A DNA stretch of 64,000 nt from Mycolicibacterium chubuense NBB4. Its GTDB lineage: Bacteria > Actinomycetota > Actinomycetes > Mycobacteriales > Mycobacteriaceae. The stretch covers positions 1,240,001-1,304,000 of the forward strand of contig NC_018027.1 of the NCBI RefSeq assembly GCF_000266905.1. Direction: 5' to 3'. Both the position numbers and the translations under genes were made by a program. Shown here piece after piece: positions 3,698 to 19,000 of the stretch (positions are counted from its first letter, which is position 1; every line of letters begins with the position of its first letter). Under the pieces are notes generated by a model. The model was not told the DNA's origin and searched no databases. It saw only the letters and a list, made by a program, of their open reading frames with translations.

Positions 3698-3758
3698 GTG
3701 TGCGCTCAGATCGCAATTCCCCTCGGGCTCTCACGCGTATTGCGATCTGAACGCACAC
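3698..3758. repeat. Intergenic palindrome (different arms from the 63-bp family)
   Basis: A 20-bp arm at 3698-3717 (beginning GTGTGCGCTCAGATCGC) is repeated inverted at 3739-3758 with one mismatch, around a 21-nt spacer. It starts one base after the TAG of the pseudouridine synthase. The stem could act as a transcription terminator, but there is no clear T-run. The architecture resembles the 63-bp repeats further on, but the arm sequence is unrelated. Only one copy was seen in this window. Confidence 0.8.
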
Positions 3759-3861: not shown

Positions 3862-4035
3862 ATGTACGACATCGTCAGGGAGTTCGCTGAACGAATTGTG
3901 GAACTCACGAAGAACTTTTTCACGTGGGAATCTGTAGGCAATACGAATGTATTACGTCTTTGCCCACTGGTCCGCCGTGACCGCTACGAAATCAGTTGGG
4001 GCCGATGCGAGGTTGGGGGGCCCGTCGTGCTGTGA
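3862..4035 (+). CDS. Possible small protein (57 aa)
   Basis: An AGGAGG ribosome site lies 4-5 nt before ATG 3862. The reading frame runs 57 codons and begins MYDIVREFAERIVELTKNFF, which could form an amphipathic helix. Base composition here is less GC-rich than the neighbours, and codon use after residue 25 looks unlike a highly adapted gene. I recognise no family. It occupies an otherwise empty 490-bp gap, so it may be a real small gene, a decayed gene or chance. Confidence 0.25.
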   Translation: MYDIVREFAERIVELTKNFFTWESVGNTNVLRLCPLVRRDRYEISWGRCEVGGPVVL

Positions 4036-4186
4036 CGATGGTGCGGACCGGCACGCGAACGGGGCAGTCTGGCAAATCCTCGATGGGTCCTGACCCCCAG
4101 ACTTGGGCGCGTTCGAGCCTCGGCCGGGCGCTCCGGCTGCCACAATCGGCAGGGTCTGCGGCGCGGTCGCAGGGAACGGAGTGGAT

Positions 4187-4525
4187 GTGCGCAGAACCTG
4201 GCTCGTCGCGGTGGCCGCGGTGATCGTCGGCGGGTCGACACCCGTGCTGATCCCCGCGCCGGCCGCCCACGCGATCTGCGGCTCGGTCGGAGGCGTGCAC
4301 GTCGACGTCTCGGGCTGCTCGGACCCGCTGTACGAGCTCAACGACGTCTACGACACGCCACCGCCGCCACCGCCGCCCCCGCCGCCGCCGGGCGCCCCGC
4401 CGCCCCCGCCGGGCGAGGCGCCGCCTCCGCCGCCTCCACCACCACCCCCGCCGCCGCCTCCACCACCCGACGTCAGCGTGTGCGCCGACGTCGGCCGCCG
4501 GATCAGCGTGAGCGGGTGCGTGTAG
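4187..4525 (+). CDS. Exported proline-rich small protein
   Basis: About 112 aa from GTG 4187, with GGAG five bases upstream; GTG 4181 is an alternative. A signal peptide (MRRTWLVAVAAVIVGG, ending near PAAHA) is followed by a short Cys-containing segment and then about 50 residues that are almost all proline with a few Gly, Ala and Glu. A closing segment (DVSVCADVGRRISVSGCV) has a VxVSGC motif resembling the HVDVSGCSD before the proline tract. The four cysteines could form disulfides outside the cell. The stop codon TAG overlaps the GTG start of the following SDR gene. Function unknown. Confidence 0.7.
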   Translation: MRRTWLVAVAAVIVGGSTPVLIPAPAAHAICGSVGGVHVDVSGCSDPLYELNDVYDTPPPPPPPPPPPGAPPPPPGEAPPPPPPPPPPPPPPPPDVSVCADVGRRISVSGCV

Positions 4526-5295
4526 TGGATCGCGCATCGTTCGACCGGCTGTTCGACATGACCGACCGGACCGTCATCGTCACCGGCGGCACCCGGGGGA
4601 TCGGGCTGGCGCTGGCCGAGGGCTACGTGCTGGCCGGCGCGCGCGTCGTCGTCGCGAGCCGCAAGGCCGACGCCTGCGAGCAGGCGGCCCAGCATCTGCG
4701 GGGTCTCGGCGGCTCGGCGATCGGCGTGCCGACGCACCTCGGTGCCGTCGACGACCTCGGCGCCCTGGTGGAGCGCACCGTCTCGGAGTTCGGCGGCGTG
4801 GACGTCCTGGTCAACAACGCCGCCAACCCGTTGGCGCAGCCGCTGGGGCAGATCACCGTGGACGCGCTGACGAAATCGTTCGAGGTGAACCTGCAGGGGC
4901 CGGTGCTGCTGGTGCAGGAGGCGCTGCCGCACCTGAAGGCCAGCCCGCACGCCGCGGTGCTGAACATGGTGTCGATCGGGGCGTTCATCTTCGCGCCGAT
5001 GCTGTCGATCTATGCGTCGATGAAGGCCGCGCTGATGTCGTTCACGCGGTCGATGGCCGCTGAGTTCGTGCACGACGGCATCCGGGTGAACGCGCTCGCG
5101 CCGGGGCCGGTGGACACCGACATGATGCGCAAGAACCCGCAGGAGGCCATCGACGGCATGGTGAACGGGACGCTGATGCGCCGGCTCGCCACGGCCGACG
5201 AAATGGTAGGCGCCGCACTGTTGTTGACCTCCGACGCGGGCAGCTACCTGACGGGCCAGGTGATCATGGTCGACGGCGGCGGCACCCCCCGCTGA
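4525..5295 (+). CDS. Short-chain dehydrogenase/reductase
   Basis: 256 aa. The GTG start shares its first base with the preceding TAG (TAGTG), so the two genes are translationally linked. The cofactor motif TGGTRGIG (about residues 18-25), NNAA (about residue 93), the catalytic Ser in MVSIGAF and the Y-x3-K pair in YASMKAA identify a classical SDR. The tail TGQVIMVDGGGTPR is typical of the FabG-like branch. NAD(P)H-dependent oxidoreductase of unknown substrate. Conserved-looking over its whole length. A 63-bp palindrome separates its 3' end from a convergent TetR gene. Confidence 0.9.
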   Translation: MDRASFDRLFDMTDRTVIVTGGTRGIGLALAEGYVLAGARVVVASRKADACEQAAQHLRGLGGSAIGVPTHLGAVDDLGALVERTVSEFGGVDVLVNNAANPLAQPLGQITVDALTKSFEVNLQGPVLLVQEALPHLKASPHAAVLNMVSIGAFIFAPMLSIYASMKAALMSFTRSMAAEFVHDGIRVNALAPGPVDTDMMRKNPQEAIDGMVNGTLMRRLATADEMVGAALLLTSDAGSYLTGQVIMVDGGGTPR

Positions 5296-5308
5296 GCGGC
5301 CCGGTTCC

Positions 5309-5371
5309 CGCCGAACTTGCATTCCGCGCGGTGCTCACTCGATTTTTGCCGCGTGGAATGCAATTTCGGCG
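5309..5371. repeat. 63-bp palindromic repeat, copy A
   Basis: The left arm (5309-5331, beginning CGCCGAACTTGCATTCC) and right arm (5349-5371) pair with two mismatches in 23, around a 17-nt spacer containing CACTCGATTTTT. It lies between the convergent ends of the SDR and TetR genes, where a two-way terminator would be useful. Confidence 0.9.
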
Positions 5372-5374
5372 CGG

Positions 5375-5980
5375 TCAGGGGCGCCGGCGTCGGTGGTCGA
5401 TCGCGGTGCCGTCCCAGCGGCGCAGGTAAGCGCGAAGTTCCTCGCCGGTGCGCGGCGGGCGGCCCGGGTCGATGACGAACGACTGCAGGGTGCGCAGCAT
5501 GTGCTCGGCCACGTCGGCGATGTCGGCCTCGGTGAATCCTTCGGCGGCCCAGTCCACGCTGAAGCGGTGGAGGATCGAGCGGGCCAGCTCCAGTGCCGTG
5601 TCGGACGTGACGCTCGCACTGAAGGATCCGGTGTGCTCGGGCGTGAGCAGCAGCCGGATGTAGGGGTCGTGCGGAAGCGCCTCGAGCGTGTAGGCGATGC
5701 CCTCGACCACCGCGGCGGACGGATCGGTGATCCCTGCCAGGTGTCCGGCCAGCAGGTCCAGGAAGCCCGACGCCGAGTCCAGCGCGGCGGCCTCCAGCAG
5801 TGCGTCGGTGCTGGGGAAGTAGCGGTAGACCGTCTGGCGGGTGACGCCGACGGCTCGGGCGATGTCGGCGATGTTCACGGCGCCGCTGCGGTCGATCGAG
5901 GTCTTGGCGGCCGCGAGGATGCGTGCGGCCGCCTCCTCGTCGGAGGCAGGCGTGTTTCCCGACCAACCGTGGCTTCGCAT
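5375..5980 (-). CDS. TetR-family transcriptional regulator
   Basis: 201 aa. ATG 5980 is chosen because GGAGGAG lies just upstream; the longer frame reads back through a palindromic repeat. The N-terminal helix-turn-helix (INIADIARAVGVTRQTVYRYFPSTDALLEAA region, about residues 38-67) is typical of TetR. The C-terminal ligand domain is not recognisable further. It is divergent from the Rieske oxygenase gene at 6100, so it probably controls that gene and itself. The 63-bp repeat copy B lies in the shared promoter region. Confidence 0.88.
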   Translation of the reverse strand: MRSHGWSGNTPASDEEAAARILAAAKTSIDRSGAVNIADIARAVGVTRQTVYRYFPSTDALLEAAALDSASGFLDLLAGHLAGITDPSAAVVEGIAYTLEALPHDPYIRLLLTPEHTGSFSASVTSDTALELARSILHRFSVDWAAEGFTEADIADVAEHMLRTLQSFVIDPGRPPRTGEELRAYLRRWDGTAIDHRRRRP

Positions 5981-5991
5981 ATCTCCTCCTT

Positions 5992-6054
5992 CGCCGAAAC
6001 TGTATTCCACGAGGGGTTTTGTCGAGTTTCGCCTCCGTAGATGCAATCTCGGCC
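5992..6054. repeat. 63-bp palindromic repeat, copy B (degenerate)
   Basis: Left arm 5992-6014 begins CGCCGAAACTGTATTCCAC. Right arm 6032-6054 is diverged. The 17-nt spacer keeps TCGAGTTTC, as in copies F and (nearly) G. It sits between the divergent TetR and Rieske genes, where it occupies the 5' leader of the regulator. Confidence 0.75.
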
Positions 6055-6099
6055 GCCAATGCTGGCCATACGCTGCGAGCAATGTGTATGGTCACTTCT

Positions 6100-7257
6100 A
6101 TGGCGACGCAGACCCCGCTGGACCGGACGCTCACCGAACGAGGCCTCGCGCTCGTCAACGGCCGGACCACCGACATGGCGGAATCGGTGCTGCGCGTGCC
6201 GTTGCACTACTACCGCGACCCGAAGATCACCGAGATCGAAGAGTCGGCGATTCTGCGGCGCACCCCGCTGGCCATCGTGCCCAGCAGCCAGCTGCCGCAC
6301 GCTCACGACTACCTGGTGCGCTCGGTGCTGGGGGATTCACTGCTCGTCACGCGCGACGCCGACGGTCGCGCCCATGTGTTCCTCAACTACTGCCGGCACC
6401 GCGGCGCGATGCCGGCATGCGGCAGCGGCAACACCCGCCGCTTCGTATGTCCTTATCACGCATGGAATTACGACAGCGCGGGGCGCTTGGTGCGCATTCC
6501 GGGCCGCGCAGGCTTCGCCGGCACGGACCTGAGCGCCTACGGGTTGGTCGAGTTGCCGAACGAGGAGCGCTTCGGCTTCGTCTGGGCGGTGCTGACCGCG
6601 GGTTCGGAGATCGATCTCGACGCCCACCTCGGCGACTTCGCCGCGGAACTGCAGCAGTGGGACTACAGCTCCTACGGCTACCACGACGACCGCGAATTCG
6701 AGTCGGAGACCAGCTGGAAGGGGGCCCTCGAGGCGTTCGCCGAGGGCTATCACTTCCCGTTCGTGCACGGCCAGAGCGTCATCGGACTGAACACCGTCGC
6801 CAACACCCACGTCTATGACGAGTGGGGCCGTCATCATCGGATCGGCTTCCCGTTCAACAACATCGCCGATCTCAACGACAACCCGGCCGAGGACTGGAGC
6901 CCGCTCGCCCGGATGGGCGTCATCTACTGGGTCTATCCCAATCTCATCCTCGCCAACAGCCCGGTCGGCGTGGAGGTCATCGACATCCTGCCCGCCGGTG
7001 CCCCGACCCGGTGCACGGTCCGGCACAGCTGGATGGCGCGCTACCCGGCCACCGACGACGCCCAGCGGGTCTTCTACGACGAGGTCTACCGCCAGGTGCA
7101 CGCCGCCGTGCGCGACGAGGACTTCGTCATGCTCCCGCAGTGCGGCGAGGGCGTGCGGCACGGCCAGCACGACCACATGCTGATCGGCCGCAACGAGATC
7201 GGCGTGCAGCACATGATCCGGGTGCTCGCCGGCGATCTCGGCGTCGCGCTGGCCTGA
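6100..7257 (+). CDS. Rieske [2Fe-2S] ring-hydroxylating oxygenase alpha subunit-like protein
   Basis: About 385 aa from ATG 6100 (in-frame ATGs at 6082 and 6088 are possible; no clear ribosome site decides). Rieske cluster ligands are visible as C98-x-H100 and C117-x2-H120 in NYCRHRG...CPYHAWNY. The mononuclear iron site is suggested by EGYHFPFVH, giving His-x4-His, in the catalytic domain. Such proteins hydroxylate aromatic or steroid substrates using electrons from a separate reductase. No reductase is adjacent here, though a ferredoxin reductase lies 2 kb downstream. Probably regulated by the divergent TetR. Substrate unknown. Confidence 0.88.
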   Translation: MATQTPLDRTLTERGLALVNGRTTDMAESVLRVPLHYYRDPKITEIEESAILRRTPLAIVPSSQLPHAHDYLVRSVLGDSLLVTRDADGRAHVFLNYCRHRGAMPACGSGNTRRFVCPYHAWNYDSAGRLVRIPGRAGFAGTDLSAYGLVELPNEERFGFVWAVLTAGSEIDLDAHLGDFAAELQQWDYSSYGYHDDREFESETSWKGALEAFAEGYHFPFVHGQSVIGLNTVANTHVYDEWGRHHRIGFPFNNIADLNDNPAEDWSPLARMGVIYWVYPNLILANSPVGVEVIDILPAGAPTRCTVRHSWMARYPATDDAQRVFYDEVYRQVHAAVRDEDFVMLPQCGEGVRHGQHDHMLIGRNEIGVQHMIRVLAGDLGVALA

Positions 7258-7261
7258 TCTC

Positions 7262-7324
7262 CGCCGAACTTGCATTCCGCGCGGCGCTTTCTCGCATTTT
7301 TGCGCGTGGAATGCAATTTCGGCG
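7262..7324. repeat. 63-bp palindromic repeat, copy C
   Basis: Left arm 7262-7284 is identical to that of copy A. Right arm 7302-7324 is nearly identical. The 17-nt spacer is TC/T-rich (CTCGCATTTTT). It lies between the convergent Rieske and enoyl-CoA hydratase genes. Confidence 0.9.
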
Positions 7325-7337
7325 CCTGGGCGCCCGC

Positions 7338-8120
7338 TCAGGATTTGCGCAGGATCTTCGACGCCGCTTCGCGCATCTCTCCACTGGTCGACGCGACGAT
7401 CTGGCTGCGGTTCTCCAAGTGCAACGCGGTCTCCAGCGACGACGCCTCCAGGTTCGCCCACAGCACCTGCTTGGTCGACTCGACCCCGAACTTGCCGTAG
7501 CCGCAGAGGGTTTCGGCGATGACCAGCGCCTCATCGACCGGCGATTCGACGATCCGCGACACCAGGCCCACCCGCAGCGCTTCGTCGGCGTCGACCGTGC
7601 GTGCCGTCAGGATCATGTCGAAAGCCGCTCCGGCGCCGATGATGCGCGGCAGCGTGTAGCTCACGCCGATGTCGCAGCCACCGAGGCCGAGCTTGATGAA
7701 CTGCGTGCAGAACCGTGCCGTCGGCGCCGCGACCCGGATGTCGCAGGCCGCGGCGATACCGAGGCCGCCGCCGTAGGCGACACCGTTGACCGCCGCGATC
7801 ACCGGCTGACGCAGCCGGTGGATTTTCGCCGTCAGCTCGGCGATGCGTTCCTGCCAGCGCATGCCCGACCGTGGGAACTCCACGCCGCTGCCGGCTTCCG
7901 CTGGATTCGGCGCGGTCAGATCCAGGCCCGAGCAGAAGCCGCGACCCGCGCCGGTCAGCACGATCACCCGCGTGACGTTGTCGGCGGCTGCCAGCGCATC
8001 GAGCGCGGCGTGCAACGCTTCGACGAGTTCGTAGGACAGCGCGTTGAGCTTCTCGGGCCGGTTGAGGGTGAGGACGGCGATCTCCGGCTGGGGGTGTGTC
8101 ACTTCGAGAACGGCAGCCAT
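7338..8120 (-). CDS. Enoyl-CoA hydratase/isomerase family protein
   Basis: 260 aa from ATG 8120 (MAAVLEVTHPQPEIAV). The crotonase fold is shown by LNRPEKLNAL, GRGFCSGLDL and the oxyanion-hole segment AAVNGVAYGGGLGIAAACDIR. The region usually carrying catalytic Glu reads LGLGGCDIGVSYTLPR, with Asp where many hydratases have Glu. That favours an isomerase- or hydrolase-like activity or a less typical hydratase. It would act on a CoA-thioester in fatty acid, sterol or related breakdown. A TetR gene lies upstream on the same strand, separated by repeat copy D. Exact substrate unknown. Confidence 0.88.
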   Translation of the reverse strand: MAAVLEVTHPQPEIAVLTLNRPEKLNALSYELVEALHAALDALAAADNVTRVIVLTGAGRGFCSGLDLTAPNPAEAGSGVEFPRSGMRWQERIAELTAKIHRLRQPVIAAVNGVAYGGGLGIAAACDIRVAAPTARFCTQFIKLGLGGCDIGVSYTLPRIIGAGAAFDMILTARTVDADEALRVGLVSRIVESPVDEALVIAETLCGYGKFGVESTKQVLWANLEASSLETALHLENRSQIVASTSGEMREAASKILRKS

Positions 8121-8153
8121 GCGTTTCACGCTAGTCAGTTTCGGGCGCGTCGC

Positions 8154-8216
8154 CGCCGAAACTGTATTCCACGCGGTCTTTTCGGCGTCTCGGCAACAGC
8201 GATAGCAGTCTCGCGG
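8154..8216. repeat. 63-bp palindromic repeat, copy D (right arm decayed)
   Basis: Left arm 8154-8176 shares its first 19 bases with copy B (CGCCGAAACTGTATTCCAC). The right-arm position 8194-8216 matches the consensus at only about half of its bases. It lies between a TetR stop codon and the enoyl-CoA hydratase start, both on the minus strand. Confidence 0.65.
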
Positions 8217-8224
8217 CAGGCGGG

Positions 8225-8923
8225 CTAACTGCTGCGCCACCCCGCGACGCCGACGGTGATCATCCGGAGCTGCTTGATCGCGATCCGCCGGATCTCGGCG
8301 ATGCTCGCGGCGTCGGTGGCGTCCTCGAGCGACTCGGCGATCACGATCATCGAATTGACGAACACACTGGCCAGGATGTTGAGGTCCTCGCCGCTCCACG
8401 TGTTCAGCCCGGGGAAGCGGGCGAGATCGATCGCCAACTCGGAGGTGATCAGCCGGATCTCGGTGCGGATGGCGTAGCGCAGGACGGTCACCCCGCTGGA
8501 GCGTTCCCGGCCGATGAAACGCCAGTGCTCACGACGCTCCTGCACGCCCTCGATGAGGATGTCGACCGACGACTCGATGACGCGGTTCGGGTCGAGCTTG
8601 CCGGCGCGTGCGCCGCGAAGCATGTCCCGCAGGGCGCGGAACGACTCGTCGATGAGCACCAGCCCGAGCGCTTCCATCGACTCGAAGTGACGATAGAACG
8701 CGGCGGGCACGATACCGGCTTCGCGCGTTACCTCGCGCAGGCTCAGGGCGCTGAAGCTGCGCTCGGCGAGCAGGTGCAATGCGGCGTCGACGATGGCGCG
8801 CCGGGTGGCTTCCTTGCGTTCCTCGCGAGTTTGGGTGTCTTTGCCCCTGCTCCGGTCGTGCCTGTCAGCGCCCCGCGACGGCTTGCTCGACCGTGACCGT
8901 GAGCTGGGCGCACGACTGTTCAC
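8225..8923 (-). CDS. TetR-family regulator divergent from the desaturase genes
   Basis: About 232 aa from GTG 8923. The first about 25 residues are Arg/Ser-rich and the true start may be later, near RGKDTQTREERKEATRRAI. The helix-turn-helix (SLREVTREAGIVPAAFYRHFESMEALG) is clear and the C-terminal part is a TetR ligand domain. It is divergent from the ferredoxin reductase-desA3 pair, a layout typical of a local repressor of acyl-CoA desaturation. A palindrome TTCAC-TGT-GTGAA overlaps the proposed start, which fits autoregulation. Confidence 0.85.
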   Translation of the reverse strand: MNSRAPSSRSRSSKPSRGADRHDRSRGKDTQTREERKEATRRAIVDAALHLLAERSFSALSLREVTREAGIVPAAFYRHFESMEALGLVLIDESFRALRDMLRGARAGKLDPNRVIESSVDILIEGVQERREHWRFIGRERSSGVTVLRYAIRTEIRLITSELAIDLARFPGLNTWSGEDLNILASVFVNSMIVIAESLEDATDAASIAEIRRIAIKQLRMITVGVAGWRSS

Positions 8924-8931
8924 TGTGTGAA
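8919..8931. promoter_or_regulatory. Candidate TetR operator
   Basis: Perfect 5-bp inverted repeat TTCAC-TGT-GTGAA in the divergent region between the TetR gene and the ferredoxin reductase gene (start 8993). A related GTTCAC half-site follows the reductase start codon at 8995-9000. Inferred only from symmetry and position. Confidence 0.4.
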
Positions 8932-8992
8932 ACCTACCACAACCTGCACGTATCTGTTGACGGGCTGCGGCATCAGCGCGCACGGTATACAC

Positions 8993-10060
8993 ATGTTCAC
9001 TCAAACTTTGACGCGGCAGGTGTCGGGGCGGGTGCGGCGCTCCGCGCTACTGGACCTGCTGACCGGGCCGCACGGCGTCGACCGCTACACCGAGCTGGTC
9101 GACCCCGTCTGGACGCGGGGCGACGCCCGCGCCCGCGTCGTGGCGGTGCGGCGCTCGACGCCGCGCAGCGTCACGCTGACGCTGGCGCCCAACCGGGCCT
9201 TTTCCGGATTCCGGGCCGGCCAGCACATCAATCTGTCCGTCGAGATCGACGGGCGCCGGCGCGTGCGGCCGTACTCGCCCGCCAACGCCGAGACCGACAC
9301 CCACCTCGAGCTGACCGTCGGACGCCACGACGGCGGGCTGGTGTCGAACTTTCTGTTCGAGCACGCCCGTCCGGGCATGGTCGTCGGCCTCGACTCCGTC
9401 GCCGGCGAGTTCACCCTGCCCGAACGGCTGCCCGACCGGTTGCTGTTCGTCTCCGGCGGCAGCGGCATCACCCCGGTGATGTCGATGCTGCGCACCCTGC
9501 GGGCCCGCGGCCATCGCGGCGAGGTGGTGTTCCTCCACTACGCGCGTTCAGCCGAAGAGGCCTGCTATCGCGACGAACTCGCCGAGATCGCACGGACGAT
9601 GCCGAACGTGACGGTGTCGCACGGCTATTCGCGAGTTGCCACGGGTTCGGACGTGCACGGCCGGTTCTGTGCCGAGCACGTCGCGACGGGCGATCCCGAC
9701 GCGGTGTTCGTGTGCGGGCCGCCCGCGCTCGTCGACGCCGTCCGCGTCGTGTTCCCGGACGCGGCGTCGGAGAGCTTCGTGCCGCCGGTTTTCGAAGGTG
9801 AATCATCGGGTGGCCGAGTCACTTTCAGCGACAGCGCAGTGGAGCTCACCGATGACGGCCGCCCGCTGCTCAACCAGGCCGAGGATGCCGGCCTGACACC
9901 GGAGAGCGGTTGCCGCATGGGCATCTGCTTCTCGTGCACCCGTCGCAAGAACAGCGGCGTGGTGAGGAATGTGATCACCGGCGCGCTGTCGTCGACCGAG
10001 GCCGAGGACGTGCAGATCTGCGTCTCCGCCCCCGTCGGCGACGTCGACGTCGCCCTGTAA
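8993..10060 (+). CDS. Ferredoxin reductase with C-terminal 2Fe-2S domain (desaturase electron donor)
   Basis: 355 aa from ATG 8993. Order: FAD-binding barrel with RPYSPAN (flavin-binding RxYS type), NAD(P)H-binding domain with SGGSGITPVMSMLRTL, and a C-terminal plant-type ferredoxin domain with CRMGICFSC and a later Cys (C-x4-C-x2-C then C in VQICVSAP). The chain NAD(P)H to FAD to 2Fe-2S would feed a di-iron enzyme. It is followed by the DesA3-type desaturase, matching mycobacterial Rv3230c-Rv3229c, where the reductase partners the stearoyl-CoA delta-9 desaturase. It ends seven bases before repeat copy E. Confidence 0.92.
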   Translation: MFTQTLTRQVSGRVRRSALLDLLTGPHGVDRYTELVDPVWTRGDARARVVAVRRSTPRSVTLTLAPNRAFSGFRAGQHINLSVEIDGRRRVRPYSPANAETDTHLELTVGRHDGGLVSNFLFEHARPGMVVGLDSVAGEFTLPERLPDRLLFVSGGSGITPVMSMLRTLRARGHRGEVVFLHYARSAEEACYRDELAEIARTMPNVTVSHGYSRVATGSDVHGRFCAEHVATGDPDAVFVCGPPALVDAVRVVFPDAASESFVPPVFEGESSGGRVTFSDSAVELTDDGRPLLNQAEDAGLTPESGCRMGICFSCTRRKNSGVVRNVITGALSSTEAEDVQICVSAPVGDVDVAL

Positions 10061-10066
10061 CCCCCC

Positions 10067-10129
10067 CGCCGAAATTGCATTCCACGCGGGAAATCACGAC
10101 GAAATGCCGCACAGGATGCAATCTCGGCG
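10067..10129. repeat. 63-bp palindromic repeat, copy E
   Basis: Left arm 10067-10089 (CGCCGAAATTGCATTCCAC...) and right arm 10107-10129 pair imperfectly around a 17-nt spacer. This copy is inside the reductase-desaturase operon, ending about 5 bases before the GAGGAGG ribosome site of desA3. It could affect message stability or the ratio of the two proteins. Confidence 0.85.
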
Positions 10130-10145
10130 ACACCGAGGAGGAACC

Positions 10146-11273
10146 ATGACCGACACCCTGGAAACCCCCGAAACCCTGGAAGCGCCCGAGCAGCGGACGC
10201 TGTCCAAGACCGTCGCAGGCAAGACCGTCACTCTGACCCCCGAGCAGGCGGAGGCGTTCGGCCGGGAACTCGACGCGCTCAAAGAGAGCGTCATCGCCGA
10301 TCTGGGTGAGCGTGACGCCGCCTACATCCGGCGGATGATCAAGGCGCAGCGCGGGCTCGAGATCGGCGGCCGCGCACTGCTGTTCGGCGGCATCATCCCG
10401 CCGTTCTGGCTGGCGGGCACCGCGATGCTGGGTCTGTCGAAGATCATCGACAACATGGAGATCGGCCACAACGTCATGCACGGCCAGTACGACTGGATGG
10501 GTGACCCGGCCATCTCGTCACGGGGCTTCGAGTGGGACACCGCCTGCCCGGCCGAGCAGTGGCGGCATTCGCACAACTACATGCACCACACGTACACCAA
10601 CATCGTCGGGCTGGACCGCGACGTCGGCTACGGCATCCTGCGGATGAGCCCCGACCAGAAATGGCACCCGTACTACCTGGGCAACCCGCTGTGGGCCTTC
10701 CTGCTGATGGTGCTGTTCCAGTACGGGGTGGCGCTGCACGAGCTGGAGAGCGAGAAGATCGCCTCCGGTGAGATCACGCTGGGCGACAAGCGCGAGATCC
10801 TCGAGGGCATCTGGCGCAAGACCAAACGGCAGACGCTGAAGGACTATGTGGCCTTCCCGTTGCTGGCCGGTCCGTTCGCGCCGTGGGTGTTCGCCGGCAA
10901 TCTGACCGCCAACCTGATGCGCAACGTGTGGTCGTACATGATCATCTTCTGCGGGCACTTCCCGGAGGACGTGCAGGAGTTCTCGATCGAGGAGACGAAG
11001 GCCGAAACGCGCGGCCAGTGGTACTTCCGTCAGATCCTCGGATCGGCGAACCTGACCGGCGGGAAGCTGTTCCACATCTTGAGCGGCAACCTCAGCTTCC
11101 AGATCGAGCACCACCTGTTCCCCGACATCCCGGCGTTCCGGCACGCGGAGATCGCGCCGAAGGTGCGGGAGATCTGCGAACGCTACGGCGTGCCGTACAA
11201 CACCGGGCCGCTGCCCCGGCAGTTCGCCACCGTGGTGCGCAAGATCGTCCGCCTCGCCCTGCCCTGGAGCTGA
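10146..11273 (+). CDS. desA3: Membrane acyl-CoA delta-9 desaturase
   Basis: 375 aa from ATG 10146 with a strong GAGGAGG ribosome site. The three histidine boxes of membrane di-iron desaturases are present: H108NVMH112, HSHNYMHH (141-148) and QIEHH near residue 325. Hydrophobic spans flank box 1 (IIPPFWLAGTAML) and lie around residues 185-205 and 240-275. It should introduce a cis double bond into stearoyl-CoA, giving oleate for phospholipids and triacylglycerol, at the inner face of the membrane. Partner: the upstream ferredoxin reductase. Probably controlled by the divergent TetR. Confidence 0.93.
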   Translation: MTDTLETPETLEAPEQRTLSKTVAGKTVTLTPEQAEAFGRELDALKESVIADLGERDAAYIRRMIKAQRGLEIGGRALLFGGIIPPFWLAGTAMLGLSKIIDNMEIGHNVMHGQYDWMGDPAISSRGFEWDTACPAEQWRHSHNYMHHTYTNIVGLDRDVGYGILRMSPDQKWHPYYLGNPLWAFLLMVLFQYGVALHELESEKIASGEITLGDKREILEGIWRKTKRQTLKDYVAFPLLAGPFAPWVFAGNLTANLMRNVWSYMIIFCGHFPEDVQEFSIEETKAETRGQWYFRQILGSANLTGGKLFHILSGNLSFQIEHHLFPDIPAFRHAEIAPKVREICERYGVPYNTGPLPRQFATVVRKIVRLALPWS

Positions 11274-11283
11274 CCTTCTCCCG

Positions 11284-11346
11284 CGCCGAACTTGCATTCC
11301 GCGCGCGCCTCACTCGAGTTTCCGCGCGTGGAATGCAAGTTCGGCG
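11284..11346. repeat. 63-bp palindromic repeat, copy F
   Basis: Left arm 11284-11306 and right arm 11324-11346 are nearly perfect complements. The 17-nt spacer contains CACTCGAGTTTC. It lies between desA3 and the arylsulfatase gene, about 100 bp before the latter's start. Confidence 0.9.
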
Positions 11347-11444
11347 GGAGGGTTTTCGCGGAAGGCCAGGAATCCCGGCGCCGCCGGCGCGAGAATCGTG
11401 GCACGGTGGCCCGTCCGTGCCGCCGCTCTCGCAAGGAGGTGGCC

Positions 11445-13853
11445 ATGGCCTGGCCCGATCGCACCCGCTTACCGATCGCCGACCCAGGTTTCGGCGGGAC
11501 CGCCGGACGCACGCTCGGCGAGTCTAAAGGCGACTGGTCGATGCTGGCGCACGTCGCGCCGCCGGCCGGTGCGCCCAACGTGCTGATCGTGCTCATCGAC
11601 GACGCGGGGTTCGGCGGCCCGACCACGTTCGGCGGCGCGATCAACACCCCGACACTGAGCCGGCTGGCCGCGAACGGATTGACCTACAACCGCTTTCATG
11701 TGACGGCCGTGTGTTCGCCGACCCGCGCCGCGCTGCTCACCGGCCGCAACCACCACCGCTGCGGGTTCGGCTCCATCGCTGAGTATCCGGGCCCGTATCC
11801 GGGGTACTCGTCGGCGTTGCCCCGCAGCATCGCGCCGTTGCCGCGGGTCCTGCGGGACAACGGCTACGTCACCGGTGGCTTCGGCAAGTGGCACCTCACA
11901 CCGGACAACGTGCAGGGCGCGGCGGGGCCGTTCGACCGCTGGCCCGCCGGGTGGGGCTTCGACCACTGGTGGGGGTTCCTGTCCGGGGCGGCCGGCCAGT
12001 ACGACCCGATCATCACCCAGGACAACGGCGTGCTCGGCGTCCCGACCGAAGGCCGCGACGGCAGGCAGTACTACTTCCCCGACGACCTGACCGACAAGGC
12101 CGTCGAATGGCTGAACGCGGTCCGCGCGCAGGACCCGGCCAAGCCGTGGATGATGTACTACTCGACCGGCGCCACCCATGCGCCCCACCACGTCTTCGCC
12201 GAGTGGGCCGACAAGTACCGCGGGCAGTTCGACGACGGCTGGGACGTCTACCGGGAGCGGACGTTACAGCGGCAGAAGGACCTCGGCATCGTCCCGCCCG
12301 ACACCGAGCTGACGCCGCGGCCGGACCTGTTCCCGGCCTGGGACAGCCTCACCGACGACCAGCGCACGCTCTACGCACGGCAGATGGAGGTGTTCGCCGG
12401 GTTCAGCGAGAACGCCGACTGGAACGTCGGCCGGCTGATCGACGCCGTCGACCGCCTCGGCGATCTGGACGACACGCTGATCTTCTACATCTGGGGCGAC
12501 AACGGAGCCTCGATGGAGGGCACGATCACCGGCTCGTTCAACGAGATGACGTTCCTGAACGGAATCGTGCTGGAGGCCGAGCAGCAGCTGGCGCTCATCG
12601 AGCAGTACGGCGGCATCGAGGCTCTCGGCAGTGAGCACACCGCGCCGCACTTCGCGGCGGCGTGGGCGCACGCGAACAACACGCCGTTCCAGTGGGGCAA
12701 GCAGATGGCCAGCCACCTCGGCGGCACCCGCGACCCGATGGTTGTGCACTGGCCGGCGCGCATCAGCCCGGACACGACGCCGCGCACGCAGTTCACCCAC
12801 TGCATCGACATCGCGCCCACCGTGCTGGAGCTCGTGGGCATCCCGGCGCCCGCCAGCGTCGACGGGTTCGACCAGGCGAACATGGACGGTGCGAGCTTCG
12901 CCGCCAGCCTGCGCGACGGCGTCGCCGCAGAACACCGCACCGTGCAGTACTTCGAGATGTTCGGCAGTCGGGCGATCTATTCCGACGGCTGGTGGGCCTG
13001 CACCCGGTTGGACAAGGCGCCGTGGGACTTCTCTCCCGAGACGATCGGCCGGTTCGGGCCAGGGAGCGACTACAACCCCGACGACGACGTCTGGGAGCTC
13101 TACTACCTGCCCGACGACTTCTCCCAGGCCCACGACGTCGCCGACCAGCACCCCGACAAGGTCGCCGAACTCGTCGCGCTGTGGTGGGCCGAGGCCGAGC
13201 GCAACCAGGTGCTGCCCCTGCTGGGCGGGATGTCAGTGCTGCTGGGCGATCTGCCGCCGCTGCCGCCGGTGACGCGCTTCGCCTATCAGGGCGGGGTGCA
13301 GAACATTCAGCGCGGCATGACGCCACGCATCCAGGGCCGGTCCTATGAGATCAGCGCCGACATCCACGTGCCCGACGGCGGGGCCGAGGGCGTGCTGGTC
13401 GCCAACGCCGACTTCATCGGCGGCTACGCGCTGTGGGTGGACGGGGAGGGCCTGCTGCACCACACGTATTCGATGCTCGGCGTGGAGACCTACGAGCAGA
13501 CGTCGTCGAAACCGATCCCGACCGGCGAGGTCACGGTGCGCATGCTGTTCGAGATCGCCCAGCCCGCCCCGGGTTCGGGTGGCCACGTGACGTTGTTCGC
13601 CGGCGACGAGGTGATCGGGGAGGGGGACATGCCGCACACGGTGCCGGTGGCGTTCTCGTCGTACGCCGGCCTGGACGTCGGACGCGACAACGGGCTGGTC
13701 GTCGACCGCGCGTACGAAGACAAGGCGCCGTACGCGTTCACCGGGACGGTGCACCGGGTGGTCTTCGATCTGCAGCCCGTCGACCCCGACACCGAACGGT
13801 CGCTGCAGCATCACGCCGCCGTGCAGGCGGTCGCCGACGGGGCTGCCGGATGA
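11445..13853 (+). CDS. atsB: Arylsulfatase
   Basis: 802 aa from ATG 11445 with AAGGAGG upstream; the longer frame runs back through a palindromic repeat and is not credible. The sulfatase signature C90-S-P-T-R94 (VCSPTRAALLTGRN) marks the cysteine converted to formylglycine. Metal ligands are suggested by IDDAGFG (Asp52, Asp53) and GDNGASMEG, with FGKWHL as a further active-site Lys/His motif. Length suits the large mycobacterial AtsA/AtsB/AtsD group. It hydrolyses sulfate esters. A C-terminal beta-rich domain of about 190 aa follows the sulfatase core. No signal peptide is seen. The symbol rests on family and position relative to nei/lhr. The end overlaps the next gene (ATGA). Confidence 0.88.
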   Translation: MAWPDRTRLPIADPGFGGTAGRTLGESKGDWSMLAHVAPPAGAPNVLIVLIDDAGFGGPTTFGGAINTPTLSRLAANGLTYNRFHVTAVCSPTRAALLTGRNHHRCGFGSIAEYPGPYPGYSSALPRSIAPLPRVLRDNGYVTGGFGKWHLTPDNVQGAAGPFDRWPAGWGFDHWWGFLSGAAGQYDPIITQDNGVLGVPTEGRDGRQYYFPDDLTDKAVEWLNAVRAQDPAKPWMMYYSTGATHAPHHVFAEWADKYRGQFDDGWDVYRERTLQRQKDLGIVPPDTELTPRPDLFPAWDSLTDDQRTLYARQMEVFAGFSENADWNVGRLIDAVDRLGDLDDTLIFYIWGDNGASMEGTITGSFNEMTFLNGIVLEAEQQLALIEQYGGIEALGSEHTAPHFAAAWAHANNTPFQWGKQMASHLGGTRDPMVVHWPARISPDTTPRTQFTHCIDIAPTVLELVGIPAPASVDGFDQANMDGASFAASLRDGVAAEHRTVQYFEMFGSRAIYSDGWWACTRLDKAPWDFSPETIGRFGPGSDYNPDDDVWELYYLPDDFSQAHDVADQHPDKVAELVALWWAEAERNQVLPLLGGMSVLLGDLPPLPPVTRFAYQGGVQNIQRGMTPRIQGRSYEISADIHVPDGGAEGVLVANADFIGGYALWVDGEGLLHHTYSMLGVETYEQTSSKPIPTGEVTVRMLFEIAQPAPGSGGHVTLFAGDEVIGEGDMPHTVPVAFSSYAGLDVGRDNGLVVDRAYEDKAPYAFTGTVHRVVFDLQPVDPDTERSLQHHAAVQAVADGAAG

Positions 13854-14203
13854 ACGGCGAACGTCCCGACCTGGAAGCGCTGTCGCGGCTCCCGGCCGAT
13901 CGGCCGGTCGTGATGGTCAACCTGATGAAGTTCACCGCGCAGGGCCGGGACGGCTACCAGCGTTACGTCGACGAAGCGACGCCGCACCTGAAGCGGATCG
14001 GTGCCAGGGTCCGCTACGCGGGTGACAGGCGTGAGAGTGTGCTGGGCAGTGACGTGTGGTGGGACGCGATCATGGTGGTCGAATACCCGTCGCCGCAGGC
14101 GTTCATCGACATGGTCACCGATCCCGGATATCGCGACGCGCACCGTCTCCGCAACGACGCGCTCGAACGCCATGAGCTGATCGCCACGACCGCCTGGTCG
14201 TAA
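13850..14203 (+). CDS. DUF1330 family protein
   Basis: 117 aa. ATG 13850 overlaps the arylsulfatase stop (ATGA), implying coupled translation. The sequence VMVNLMKF...Y..Y...A.P.....GARVRYAGDR and the closing VVEYPSPQAFIDMVTDPGYR..H.LR are typical of the DUF1330 ferredoxin-like (dimeric alpha/beta barrel) fold. Its role is unknown. The overlap suggests it works with the sulfatase, perhaps on the same substrate. Followed by repeat copy G. Confidence 0.8.
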   Translation: MNGERPDLEALSRLPADRPVVMVNLMKFTAQGRDGYQRYVDEATPHLKRIGARVRYAGDRRESVLGSDVWWDAIMVVEYPSPQAFIDMVTDPGYRDAHRLRNDALERHELIATTAWS

Positions 14204-14211
14204 ACCCCCCT

Positions 14212-14275
14212 CGCCGAACTCGCATTCCACGCGGTCACTCACCCGAGTTTCCGCGCGCGGAATGCAAGTTCGGCG
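14212..14275. repeat. 63-bp palindromic repeat, copy G
   Basis: Left arm 14212-14234 (CGCCGAACTCGCATTCCAC...), right arm 14253-14275, spacer containing CACCCGAGTTTC. The right arm and part of the spacer are translated as the last codons of the minus-strand endonuclease gene, whose stop (14239-14241) lies in the spacer. Confidence 0.88.
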
Positions 14276-15162
14276 AGGTGGCGGGAGTAGGCGTACGCGT
14301 AGCGCGGTATCTCGATGCTGCCCCGCCAGCCCCGCGCGACCATCGCTTCGCGCAGGCGCACGATGACGTGGATCGGGTCGTCTTCCTTGACCACGGTGAT
14401 GACGTGCCAGCCGAGCTGACGCAGGACGGGCATGACGCGGCGGTCCTTGAGGTACTGCGCGCGATCGGCCTGGTGTTGGTCGCCGTCGTACTCGAGGGCG
14501 ACCTGATATTCCTCCCAGCCGAAGTCGAGCGTGCGCACGTGCCGCCGGTAGTCGTCCCGGACGGTTATCTGGGTGGCCGGGATGGGAAAGCCGGACTCGA
14601 TGACGAGCCGGCGCCACCAGGATTCGCGTGGCGACTCGGCGCCGCCGTCGACGAACGGCAGCACCGCCTTGAGCAAAGCCACCCCGCGGGCGCCTTTGTA
14701 GCGCTGCGTCAGCATCAGGACGTCGTCGGTCGAATAGGGCTCCGCACGCATCAGCGCGTCCAGGCGGCCCAACGTGTCATGGCGCTGGAAGCGGCCGAGA
14801 TCGAACGCTGTTCGCGCGGGCGTCGCGACGGGCAACCCGTTCAGGACCTGCCATTCGTCGGCCTCGATGCGCTCGGCCCGGGCGACGATGCCGCGGGGTG
14901 CGCGAGGGAACTTGTAGACCAGTTCGATGTCGATGTCAGTGTCGACCCACGACGAACCGTGCAGTGCGGCGGCCGCGAGACCGGTGACGATGCCGCAGCG
15001 CCTGGAGAACAGCCACGCGCCGACGGTCCGGTCGCGCAGGGTGATCACCCGGTTCGTGGGTGCGTGGACGTTGCGGTAGATCGGCCGATACCAGCGCCGG
15101 AGTTCATGTGCGGTGACGACGCCGTTCGCGACGGCCTCGGTGCCGATGATGATGTCTTCCAT
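14239..15162 (-). CDS. DUF559/Vsr-like endonuclease domain protein with AbiEi-like N-terminal region
   Basis: 307 aa from ATG 15162. The N-terminal half (ANGVVTAHELRRWYRPIYRNVHAP ... GAWLFSRRCGIVTGLAAAALHG) resembles the winged-helix/AbiEi-type region common in solitary actinobacterial genes. The C-terminal half has the Vsr/DUF559 PD-(D/E)XK pattern YQVALEYDGDQH...D..R...L..LGW.VI.V. The last about 12 residues (HLAELAFRARKLG) are encoded by repeat copy G, so the original C-terminus was probably replaced or extended. Copies G and H of the palindrome bracket the gene. Many such genes exist in mycobacteria without a known role. Function inferred from fold only. Confidence 0.72.
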   Translation of the reverse strand: MEDIIIGTEAVANGVVTAHELRRWYRPIYRNVHAPTNRVITLRDRTVGAWLFSRRCGIVTGLAAAALHGSSWVDTDIDIELVYKFPRAPRGIVARAERIEADEWQVLNGLPVATPARTAFDLGRFQRHDTLGRLDALMRAEPYSTDDVLMLTQRYKGARGVALLKAVLPFVDGGAESPRESWWRRLVIESGFPIPATQITVRDDYRRHVRTLDFGWEEYQVALEYDGDQHQADRAQYLKDRRVMPVLRQLGWHVITVVKEDDPIHVIVRLREAMVARGWRGSIEIPRYAYAYSRHLAELAFRARKLG

Positions 15163-15195
15163 GGCCGAATGATCGGCAGCATGCCCGACACCTTC

Positions 15196-15258
15196 CGCCG
15201 AGATTGCATGCAGCGCGGGAGTTATCCACAGGTTCGCGCGTGGAATGCAAGTTCGGCG
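15196..15258. repeat. 63-bp palindromic repeat, copy H
   Basis: Left arm 15196-15218 (CGCCGAGATTGCATGCAG...) and right arm 15236-15258 (...GGAATGCAAGTTCGGCG). The 17-nt spacer (GTTATCCACAGG) differs from other copies. It lies between nei (upstream on the minus strand) and the DUF559 gene. Confidence 0.85.
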
Positions 15259-15264
15259 AAGAGG

Positions 15265-16017
15265 TCAGCGTTGGCAGGTGGGGCACCAGTAGGTGACCCG
15301 GTCGCCGTCCTTGTCCGTCTCGATCGGCGTGCCGCAGCGGCGGCACGGCAGGCCGGCCCGGCCGTACACCCAGACGTCCTGGCCGGGCCGGGTGTTTCCG
15401 GTCGTGGTGCGGTTCACCCGTAAGCGGTTGAGCCACAACATCTGCTGTGCCCGGGTCGCGACGCGCAACGGGTCGCCGACCTCGCCGACGGGTGTCTCGG
15501 GACGCAGCCCGAACACGAACGACAGCTCGTTGGCGAAGACGTTGCCGACGCCGGCCATCACCCGCTGGTCCAGCAGCGCCTCGGCGAACGGCCGCGACGG
15601 GTCGGCCCTCAGGTTCGCCGCGGCGGTCTCGGCCGACCAGTCCTCGCCGAGCAGGTCCGGCCCCAGGTGCGCGACGGCGTCCATGTCGGTCGCCCGGTCG
15701 AGCACCTCGAGCACGCCGAGGTCGATGCCGGAGGCGACGGAGTCCTTGGTGCCCAACACGATCCGCACCTTGTACGCCGGAACCCGCACCCGCCCGATCA
15801 CCCACGCGCCGTCCATCTTCAGATGCGAGTGGATGCTGGCCGCGCCGACGCGGATGAACAGGTGCTTGCCGCGGCTCAGCACCTCGTCGACGACCTCACC
15901 GCGCAGATCCACCGCCGCATAGCGCGGCACCCGCACATCGCAGCGCGTCAGCGTCTTGCCCACGAGTGCCTCTCGCAGTTTCGCCGCGGTGCGAAAGACG
16001 GTGTCGCCTTCGGGCAT
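15265..16017 (-). CDS. nei: Endonuclease VIII / formamidopyrimidine-DNA glycosylase family DNA repair enzyme
   Basis: 250 aa. The start [11 protein letters not shown] exposes the catalytic Pro2-Glu3 pair of the Fpg/Nei family once Met is removed. The H2TH segment ([19 protein letters not shown]) and a C-terminal zinc finger (CRRCGTP...YWCPTC) are intact. It removes oxidised bases and nicks abasic sites by beta/delta elimination. It overlaps lhr (TGATG), so the two are co-translated, linking base excision repair with the Lhr helicase. The same pair occurs in M. tuberculosis (Rv3297-Rv3296). Confidence 0.93.
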
Positions 16018-19000
16018 CAGCGCATCCGCAGCCCGCGCGGTGTTCTGGAGAACCCGGCCTGCACCAGCGACTCGGCCACCACCGAGTCCCGCTGCTCCAG
16101 CACCGGCACCCCGTCGACGCGCTCGACGAGCAGCGCCGGGACCCGTTGGCGGGTGACCAGTTCGGCCAGCGCGGCCGCGGCGGCGTTGTGCGTCTCGGTG
16201 TCGCCGGTGAAGCTCAGCAGCGAGCGGCCGCCCCGCTCGACGAACCAGGCCAGTTCACCGTCGACCAGCACCACCAGCGCGCCGGCTTTGCGGCCGGGCC
16301 GGTGCGCCGAGTCGGTCTCGCCGTCACGCGTCGGCCACGGCAGCGCGGCGCCGTACGGATTCGCCGGGTCGGTGGCCGCCAGCGCGAGTGCACGGAAGCT
16401 CTGCTGCTTGTCGTCGATGCTGTCGGCGTGGGTGCGCAGCCTGTCGACCGTGCTGGCCGTCGCGAACTGCGCACCACCGAGCGACTCAACGAAATAGCCG
16501 CGCTGACAACGCCCCGCGTCCTCCATCGTCGTCAGCACCTTGTACATCGACGCGAAACCACCCGGAATGTTGCCGCGGGTGTTCTCGGTGGCCACCGCGC
16601 CCTTGGTGAGCACGCCGTGGCGGGCCAGCAGCTGGTCGGCCTGGAACGACGCCCGCACCGTGGTGTCCACCTCGGCCGTCGGCAGCGCCGACCACCGGCC
16701 GGCGACGGTCGGGTCGGAGTCGCGGTGAGCGCTCAGGCCCGCGCTGGTCATGCTGTAGCGGCTCAGCCGCGGGGCCCGCCGGTGCCGGTGCGACGGTGTC
16801 GCCGCCCGGCGCGGACCCGGCCCGCGCGTGCCGGCCAGCAGCGCGCGCACCGGGGCGAACGTGTCCCCGCCCACGTATCCGGCCCAGATCAGTTGCCACA
16901 GCGCCTCTTTCAGCGCCTCCGTGCTGACGCCGTCGACCGAGATCTGCCGGAAGAAATACGCCCCGCCGCCGCTCAGCGCCCCCAGGATCGCGTGGTGCAC
17001 GTCAGTGAGGTCCAGTTCGCCGGGCGGGATCAGCGACAGCGGCGCGGTGTCGGCAGGGTGGAACGCGACCCAGCCGTCGGCCGCCGAGAGCGAACCGGCG
17101 CCCGACCACACCACCTCACCGGAGGCCAGCAACTCGTCGAGCATCCCGGGCTGGTAGTCGCGCACCCGCTGCCCGAAGATCAGCGGCTCGACCGCCGACG
17201 CCGGCATCGGCACCCCGGCGAGCTGGTCGATGACCGCGGCCAGGCCGTCCACACCGGACACGCTGTCGCTGCCCAGCATCTGCCACGCCGGCAGGAACCG
17301 CCCCAGCGCCGCGGTGCTGACGGGTTCGATCTGCGCCCGCAGCGCCGCCAGCGACCGCCGGCGCAGGATGCGCAGCACCTCGGCGTCGCACCACTGGTCA
17401 CCGGAATCGGTTGGCGCGTCGGTGAACTCCCCGCGCACCAGCTTCCGGTCGGCGGCCAAGCGGCCGAGCACGTCGGCGGCCACCCGCAGACCCAGGCCGA
17501 AGCGCGTCGCCGCATCGGCCGTGGTGAACGGACCGCGGGTGCGCGCATACCGCGACAGGAGTTCACCCAGCGGGTCGACGACCGGCTCTAGGAACGCCAT
17601 CGGCACGCCGACCGGGACCGCCACCCCGACGCCGTCGCGCAACCTGCCGATGTCCTCGATCGCGGTCCACCACGTCCGCCCGGCATAGGACACCGTCAGC
17701 ACCCGGCGCGCGCTCAGCAGCCCCTCCAGCCATCCGCCGACGTCGTCGGCGGATGACCGCGCAGCCACTTCCTCGGCGGTCATCGGGCCCAGCAGCCGCA
17801 GCAGGTCGGCCACCCCTTCGGCGTCGCGGGCCAGCCGCTCGGGGGACAGGTGCTGCAACTGCCGCGTGGTGGTGGCGACGACGTCGGCGTCGAGCAGTTC
17901 CCGCAACTCGACGCGGCCCAGCAGCTCCGCCAGCAGCGTGGGGTCCAATGCCAGTGCCGCGGCGCGTCTTTCGGCCAGCGGACTGTCGCCCTCGTACATG
18001 AACGCGCCGACGTAGCCGAACAGCAGCGACGCCGCGAACGGCGACGGGGTCGGGGTCTCCACCTCGAGCAGCCGCACCCGGCGCTGAGCGATGCGGGCCA
18101 TCAGCTCGGTCAGCATCGGCACGTCGTAGACGTCCTGCAGACACTCGCGCACCGCTTCGAGCACGACCGGGAAGTCGGGGTAATTGCGCGCCACGTCCAG
18201 AAGTTGCGCGGCGCGCTGGCGCTGATGCCACAGCGGTGAGCGCTTACCCGGATGCCGGCGCGGCAGCAGCAGCGCCCGGGCGGCGCACTCCCGGAACCGC
18301 GACGCGAACAGCGCCGACGAACTGACCTCCGTCGTCACCAGCGGTTCGATCTCGTCGGGCTCGAACACGAAGATGTCGGCGCCGGGGGCGGTGTCGTCGG
18401 TGTCGGGGAGCCGCACGATGATGCCGTCGTCGGAGGCGGTGGGCTTCTCGTCGATACCGAACCGTTCGTAGAGCCGCTTGCCGACCGCCAGCGCCAGCGG
18501 CCCGTGCACCCGCAGGCCGTAGGGCGAGTGCAGGATCACCCGCCAGTCGCCGAGTTCGTCGCGGAAGCGCTCCACCACCAGGGTCGTGTCCGACGGCACC
18601 GCCGTCGTCGCCGCGCGCTGTTCGTCGATCAGCTGCCACAGGTTGTCGGTCGCGAACGCGTCGAATCCGACCTGCCGGCACCGCGCCTCGAACGCCGCGC
18701 GATCCAGGCGCGCCAACTCGCCGTTGAACGCGCCGATCGCCGCGCCCAGCTCGGCGGGGCGGCCCACCCCGTCGCCGCGCCAGAACGGCAGCCGGGCCGG
18801 TTCGCCCGGTGCGGGGATCACGAGCACCCGGTCGTGGGTGATCTCGGTGATCCGCCAGCTCGTCGCACCCAGGGAGATCACGTCGCTGGGCCGGGATTCG
18901 TAGACCATCTCCTCGTCGAGTTCGCCGACCCGCGAAGGCTTTTCGGAGTCAGCGCTGGAGGCCAGGTACACCGTGAACATGCCGCGGTCGGGTATCGCGC

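Follow-up and report, generated by a model that had tools for sequence, protein, structure and literature searches.

Within the window analyzed here, a 64,000-nt stretch of Mycolicibacterium chubuense NBB4 (NC_018027.1, positions 1,240,001-1,304,000; element coordinates are given as window positions), eight copies (A to H) of a palindrome of about 63 bp lie in 10 kb, and the last two of them bracket a gene for a nuclease-like protein. We consider it probable that these copies are mobile palindromes resembling REPINs (hairpin-forming pairs of repetitive extragenic palindromic, or REP, sequences), that they reside at the 3' ends of genes, and that the nuclease gene between copies G and H encodes their partner. 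The pairing of element and nuclease suggests that actinobacteria possess a type of mobile DNA not described before. With somewhat less assurance, we lean towards regarding it as one case of a widespread class of REPIN-like palindromes in Actinomycetota, independent of the REP-associated tyrosine transposases (RAYTs), in which an AbiEi-Vsr nuclease would bind a palindrome of ~60 bp via its 23-bp arms and spread it to gene 3' ends, the arms would switch jointly with the enzyme, and several such pairs would coexist in a genome.

The partner gene (14239..15162, minus strand) encodes a 307-aa protein, in which the predicted fold joins an AbiEi-like N-terminal region (residues 1-172) to a nuclease domain of the Vsr/EDxHD type (residues ~175-280). 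The N-terminal half matches the AbiEi models of PADLOC (best E 1.3e-7), while the C-terminal domain is predicted to adopt the Vsr-like catalytic fold of the EDxHD homing endonucleases. This fold assignment rests on VIA-align 2, because Foldseek alone gave no match at E<=0.001; a sequence search of solved structures yielded nothing credible (best E 0.085), and three proteins matched no NCBIfam family at E<=0.01. Four residues (E180, D213, H230 and D240) are invariant in 77 aligned proteins. Copy G (14212..14275, plus strand, as are all the copies) contains the stop codon (14239-14241) and the last codons of the gene, and copy H (15196..15258) is located 33 bp upstream of its start codon, in the position of an operator. 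The first-pass annotation, which had reported the eight palindromes at the positions where we find them, overlooked that G and H bracket a nuclease-like gene and that G overlaps its 3' end.

This arrangement recurs at the relatives of the gene. The nuclease type is represented by ten genes in the genome of M. chubuense and by 1 to 16 matches in each of the 118 genomes of the genus that were searched, and homologs at E<=1e-8 occur in 100 of 296 genomes drawn from the phylum. The 220 bp preceding each gene were compared with a segment made up of the gene end and the 180 bp that follow it at 39 loci, i.e. the ten own genes and 29 genes from as many genomes of the genus (the best homolog matches). 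The two flanks match above a score of 18, the maximum of 195 same-locus control pairs, in 27 of them (7/10 own, 20/29 others), with medians of 22.5 for the nuclease loci and 10.5 for the control pairs. Only 7 of 642 ordinary genes of the same genome (600-1300 bp) exceed 18, and five of these seven lie between two copies of the window type. Upstream palindromes (score >=11) are found at 27/39 nuclease loci vs 20 of 400 ordinary genes drawn at random from the eligible ones. The arms vary from homolog to homolog. Outside the genus, the flank match exceeds the maximum of 200 controls at 13 of 25 loci. In G125, a genome from another family of the class, 25 half-sites were found vs 1 control, with eight pairs exactly 46 bp apart, two of them at the nuclease, and in Tsukamurella tyrosinosolvens a DUF559-annotated gene is flanked on either side by near-perfect palindromes (56 to 64 bp). 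The bracketing of an enzyme gene by its own type of repeat, which is characteristic of REPINs, is found here for the nuclease and not for a RAYT.

Five homologs (L013, L125, L126, L130 and L137) have an upstream palindrome only. Judging from the flanks, they look like one conserved locus beside recR, and perhaps represent a domesticated variant devoted solely to autoregulation.

Copies of the palindrome are scattered along the chromosome. The 17-mer half-site CGCCGAACTTGCATTCC occurs at 126 places (61 forward, 65 reverse) of the 6.34-Mb genome at <=2 mismatches, and its reversed control at none. A covariance model of the eight copies gave 141 matches. Merging by hand reduced these to 72 places, each of them on the chromosome contig (5.58 Mb); exclusion of two (898402 and 4367172) as a sister arm type leaves 70 copies, among which 4275284 carries the sister arm too. 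Because 150 of 2148 first-look candidates were scored, the family comprises at least 70 copies. The genome search and the search of related mycobacteria that the first-pass annotation had called for reveal a dispersed family of about 70 copies, not a single cluster, with matches in 83 of 118 genomes of the genus (own included). The copies are clustered around the nuclease: the window holds 8 of the 70 in 10 kb, vs a maximum of 6 in 20,000 simulations of random placement. The half-sites start 46 bp apart in 60 copies, 47 bp in nine and 45 bp in one, and the midpoints of 66/70 copies fall outside called genes, as befits the dispersed extragenic inverted pair that defines a REPIN.

The arms of the copies have a mean identity of 0.83. 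Their paired positions show no covariation (0.842 vs a null of 0.833, standard deviation 0.0064), and left and right arms receive half-site variants independently (position 8: 18/15/15/22). This implies that RNA pairing is not the force that keeps the arms alike, which are best explained by a recognized sequence. Some of the spacers are alike as well: 17 pairs of spacers match at >=14 of 17 positions vs 1 pair among random 17-mers, and the motif CTCGnACTTT occurs in 29/45 palindromes flanking nucleases of the genus, 12/70 own copies and 8/3000 random windows.

According to the comparison of genomes, the arm type follows the enzyme. Among 117 relatives, the median number of own-type copies (R1) is 18 in the 14 genomes with a nuclease match at E<=1e-100 and 2 in the other 103. 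We also assigned the half-sites of 40 dispersed elements from five relatives, hand-picked among the best R1 matches listed and hence biased towards own-type arms. The arm type of the local nuclease proved to be the nearest one for 15/20 half-sites in G054, for 22/28 in G037 and G099 (2 ties) and for 21/32 in G049 and G021 (10 ties). In the genome of M. chubuense, 113 of 136 half-sites are of the own type. In G054, three of the listed R1 matches lie within 8 kb of the nuclease. G044 is an outlier, in which the nuclease is 66% identical yet only one R1 match was found; here the nuclease is flanked by another arm, which at <=2 mismatches occurs at 11 places in G044 vs 1 in seven other genomes together, and which forms five palindrome pairs with the usual half-site distance, of which two flank the nuclease and three lie elsewhere. 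Within M. chubuense, the sister arm type, which belongs to the paralog at 4415125, recurs as seven pairs 47 bp apart, and a search of 28% of the chromosome revealed a few dispersed copies of the palindromes of the paralogs L014, L015, L018 and L020.

Comparison of orthologous gaps, as proposed by the first-pass annotation, indicates that copies have been gained at some sites. It involved 20 regions of relatives taken from the best matches, with absence judged by eye from gaps and alignments. Gap C has no element in G082, the only relative compared that retains both flanks. At gap D, 16 of 17 relatives with both flanks lack a palindrome, and the seventeenth (G095, L154) has an unrelated one with CCGAGACYACGGTTGTTG-like arms. 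At gap E, 15 of 19 such relatives lack a palindrome; of the other four, three have a related one and the fourth a shorter one. Where M. chubuense has F and G, the close relative G054 has elements too, but with arms of the G054 type, which is explained either by independent insertion or by arm conversion. Copies B and D, with left arms of the G054 type and decayed right arms, look like older copies.

The copies are strongly concentrated at gene ends. With genes called by a simple codon-usage caller, 34 of the 70 copies are found in convergent gaps, 31 in codirectional and only one in divergent gaps, although the last account for 25% of the intergenic sequence when the chromosome is sampled at even spacing; the midpoints of the remaining four fall in called genes. 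Two of these four (G and 3427144) are located at the very end of the gene, and the others may be calling errors. The median distance to the nearest stop codon is 5 bp, and it is <=13 bp in 62/65 copies vs 10% of random points in non-divergent gaps, a length-weighted background that includes long gaps, some of them probably missed genes.

Several observations weigh against our interpretation or limit the support for it. The correlation that links the number of own-type copies in the 117 relatives to the best nuclease match (Spearman coefficient 0.43) speaks for it, but was calculated with kinship ignored and with counts recorded as 41 standing for at least 41. The contrast seen for G044 shrinks at <=3 mismatches to 24 places vs 1 to 10 per genome. 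Matching flanks are missing from 12 of the 39 loci, and a downstream palindrome alone is less distinctive than an upstream one (18/39 loci vs 58/400 ordinary genes). Outside the genus, 12 of 25 loci do not exceed the controls, and the test there measures similarity of the flanks rather than palindromy, so that some of the 13 positive loci (e.g. L227 and L229) resemble tandem repeats. Three of the eight other own paralogs tested (L013, L016 and L017) have no dispersed copy in the 28% of the chromosome searched. Most copies look old, because their spacers have mostly diverged (mean identity 0.46 vs 0.35 for random 17-mers), and the insertion point at gap D is blurred, because M. chubuense carries additional, unaligned bases there next to the element. 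Finally, the copies exhibit no signal of target-site duplication (direct-repeat mean 4.04 vs a null of 3.85, standard deviation 0.11, maximum 4.23), and no other signature of a joining reaction was found alongside this test. Insertion into pre-existing hairpins was considered and rejected, as outward extension of the stems is not above shuffled pairing.

How could such a system work? We envisage that two nuclease protomers would bind the two 23-bp arms as a dimer through their AbiEi-like regions, and that the Vsr/EDxHD-type domains would cut DNA. In support of this scheme, passages of PMC7319586 describe AbiEi proteins binding 23-bp inverted repeats at their own promoter, and passages of PMC3943268 describe the EDxHD enzyme I-Bth0305I dimerizing on a target of nearly 60 bp. 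Copy H may double as the operator of the nuclease gene, as for AbiEi. Breaks made by the nuclease could take up a new copy in either of two ways, by repair from the palindrome as a donor sequence or by joining with an excised copy, and new copies would land preferentially beside stop codons and near the nuclease gene. The arm sequence and the enzyme would then evolve together.

The main competing explanation, which we consider unlikely, is that the palindromes are host-serving binding sites of the AbiEi-nuclease protein, which would be a DNA-binding regulator or a factor acting on the chromosome or on 3' ends; occasional recombination or gene conversion would have spread the sites, and selection would keep them for their usefulness at gene ends. 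It would account for conserved arms in the presence of drifting spacers, for the strong preference for gene 3' ends and for the joint difference of the arms of G054 at the places of F and G, and it fits with AbiEi proteins being autoregulators that bind inverted repeats (passages of PMC7319586). It also agrees with the bias of the copies towards one half of the chromosome, as 54 of 70 (47 of 63 if the window cluster is treated as a single copy) lie in the half centered on position 0, the likely replication origin by GC skew. However, host-serving sites would not require a conserved nuclease domain, nor a pair of palindromes around the gene, of which one encodes the end of the protein, and the populations of the element differ between genomes. 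We prefer mobile palindromes with the nuclease as partner.

It is improbable that the elements are terminators or mRNA stabilizers with similar hairpins, inherited vertically. The first-pass annotation had attributed this role to them in addition to mobility, and their position in convergent and codirectional gaps fits it, as do the strong hairpins predicted for the eight window copies on both strands (-17.4 to -49.8 kcal/mol). On the other hand, it is the arm sequence itself that is shared and not pairing alone, covariation is absent, a T-tract within 12 nt, as in intrinsic terminators, accompanies only 3 of 140 element sides, and the gaps of relatives lack the element. Still less probable is a self-recognition or restriction-like device, in which a nuclease directed against incoming DNA would find decoys or marks in the chromosomal copies. 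The similarity of the N-terminal half to AbiEi models from PADLOC is compatible with such a role, but neither direct neighbor of the gene encodes an AbiEii nucleotidyltransferase toxin, homologs are found in only 5 of 72,556 plasmid records (all <60% identity) and in 0 of 50,697 phage records, and the flanking copies would be left unexplained. The same counts led us to reject plasmids and phages as carriers of the nuclease.

The proposal of a REP/MITE-like mobile palindrome in the first-pass annotation holds in so far as the element is dispersed, REP-like and gained at some sites, but neither label is supported in its strict sense. A miniature inverted-repeat transposable element (MITE) of a DDE-type insertion sequence would be short, palindromic, multi-copy and missing from orthologous gaps, as is the case here; we regard this origin as very doubtful, although no insertion sequence with such ends was looked for, given that target-site duplications are not in evidence and that the arms track the nuclease gene. 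The arms are also found in the flanks of that gene. Classical REPs or REPINs moved by a RAYT (Y1 tyrosine transposase) have the same look, including inverted extragenic pairs and an enzyme gene bracketed by its own palindromes (passages of PMC3116915), but can be virtually dismissed, as Y1_Tnp (PF01797) has 0 matches at E<=0.001 in the M. chubuense genome, which contradicts this explanation there (the same search was positive in 5/14 control genomes), and only 6/70 copies have GTAG or CGTC within 6 nt of an end.

As to the individual copies in the window, the 23-17-23 layout (arm, spacer, arm) reported before is confirmed, with six copies of 63 bp, G of 64 bp, and D of ~62 bp. Copies A (5309..5371) and C (7262..7324) are located between convergent genes, for a short-chain dehydrogenase/reductase (plus) and a TetR protein (minus), and for a Rieske oxygenase (plus) and an enoyl-CoA hydratase (minus), respectively, and B (5992..6054) lies in a divergent gap, all in agreement with the first-pass annotation. 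Its second subtype is also borne out: B, with the left arm CGCCGAAACTGTATTCC and a decayed right arm, and D (8154..8215), also with a decayed right arm, have the left arm CGCCGAAACTGTATTCCACG in common, which matches the arm type at the nuclease of G054. Copy E (10067..10129) occupies the gap separating a reductase gene from a desaturase gene, and F (11284..11346) is the one with a G054-type counterpart at the same place in G054. The claim that the rest of the window contains no further copies is true for the own family (<=3 mismatches per half-site), but positions 3698..3758 (plus) hold a palindrome from a different family, with arms GTGTGCGCTCAGATCGCAAT, directly after a TAG triplet; this family flanks the nuclease paralog at C3:4301555 (L014). 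No Rfam family was found at E<=1 across window positions 4000-17000.

Some further observations were made along the way. The spacers of copy H and of the upstream palindrome of L012 contain TTATCCACAG, which we take to be DnaA box-like, and TTATCC-related strings occur in or beside the counterparts of copy H in G054, G099 and G027. The neighbors of the partner gene encode an Fpg/Nei-type glycosylase and a DUF1330 protein. At 48619-49596 (minus) the window contains a gene without a Pfam match, whose upstream flank apparently encodes a tandem paralog. Elsewhere on the chromosome, three pairs of copies ~1.1 kb apart (C3:320252/321330, 742226/743323 and 1171921/1173008) enclose one gene each. These pairs were considered as further nuclease units and rejected; the enclosed genes are ordinary, because they match an AP-endonuclease-2/xylose-isomerase-type TIM barrel, a 2-hydroxyacid dehydrogenase and an SGL/strictosidine-synthase-like family.

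If our proposal is correct, mobile palindromes served by an enzyme have arisen in bacteria a second time, independently, and on the basis of a nuclease fold instead of a transposase. It also offers a function, open to testing, for the many proteins that carry the labels hypothetical, DUF559 or AbiEi-like, and the natural arm switches (own, G054, G037, G049 and G044) provide ready-made specificity pairs for biochemistry. Because they are located at gene ends, the elements could shape the 3' ends of many transcripts. In the open-licence PMC literature, a scope that excludes most subscription papers and preprints, we found neither a link between DUF559/AbiEi-type nucleases and dispersed palindromes nor the literal half-site sequences.

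Among known systems, the bacterial stem-loop families, including Myt of M. tuberculosis, are likewise dispersed, hairpin-forming repeats found in mycobacteria. Compared by description only, they are listed by structure in PMC2267715, a paper that does not contain the word transposase and whose passages show no link to a nuclease. The closest resemblance is to REPs or REPINs with their RAYT (TnpA-REP), for which passages of PMC3116915 describe dispersed extragenic inverted palindromes, an enzyme gene beside its own palindrome type, a palindrome type that differs from enzyme to enzyme, and clusters near the enzyme gene. In contrast, the partner here is a protein of the AbiEi-Vsr type and not a Y1 transposase, most copies lack the GTAG tag (described in passages of PMC8266576), and the unit is nearly fixed at 62-64 bp with 23-bp arms. 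The elements would work like REPINs with a RAYT, yet fail the two defining features tested, namely the Y1 enzyme and the tag. The AbiEi antitoxins of type IV toxin-antitoxin systems (AbiEi, Rv2827c) differ from the present protein, which has the additional Vsr/EDxHD-type domain, no neighboring toxin gene, and a palindrome that is dispersed over the chromosome and also occurs downstream of its gene; the layout of copy H nonetheless fits the upstream inverted repeats of AbiE autoregulation and makes it a candidate operator. The nuclease differs from EDxHD homing endonucleases such as I-Bth0305I and from the Vsr endonuclease in that the window gives no sign of an intron or intein around it, and in that its repeated site is copied and kept rather than interrupted. 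Judged by sequence and predicted fold alone, the system shares parts with both the AbiE systems and the EDxHD homing endonucleases.

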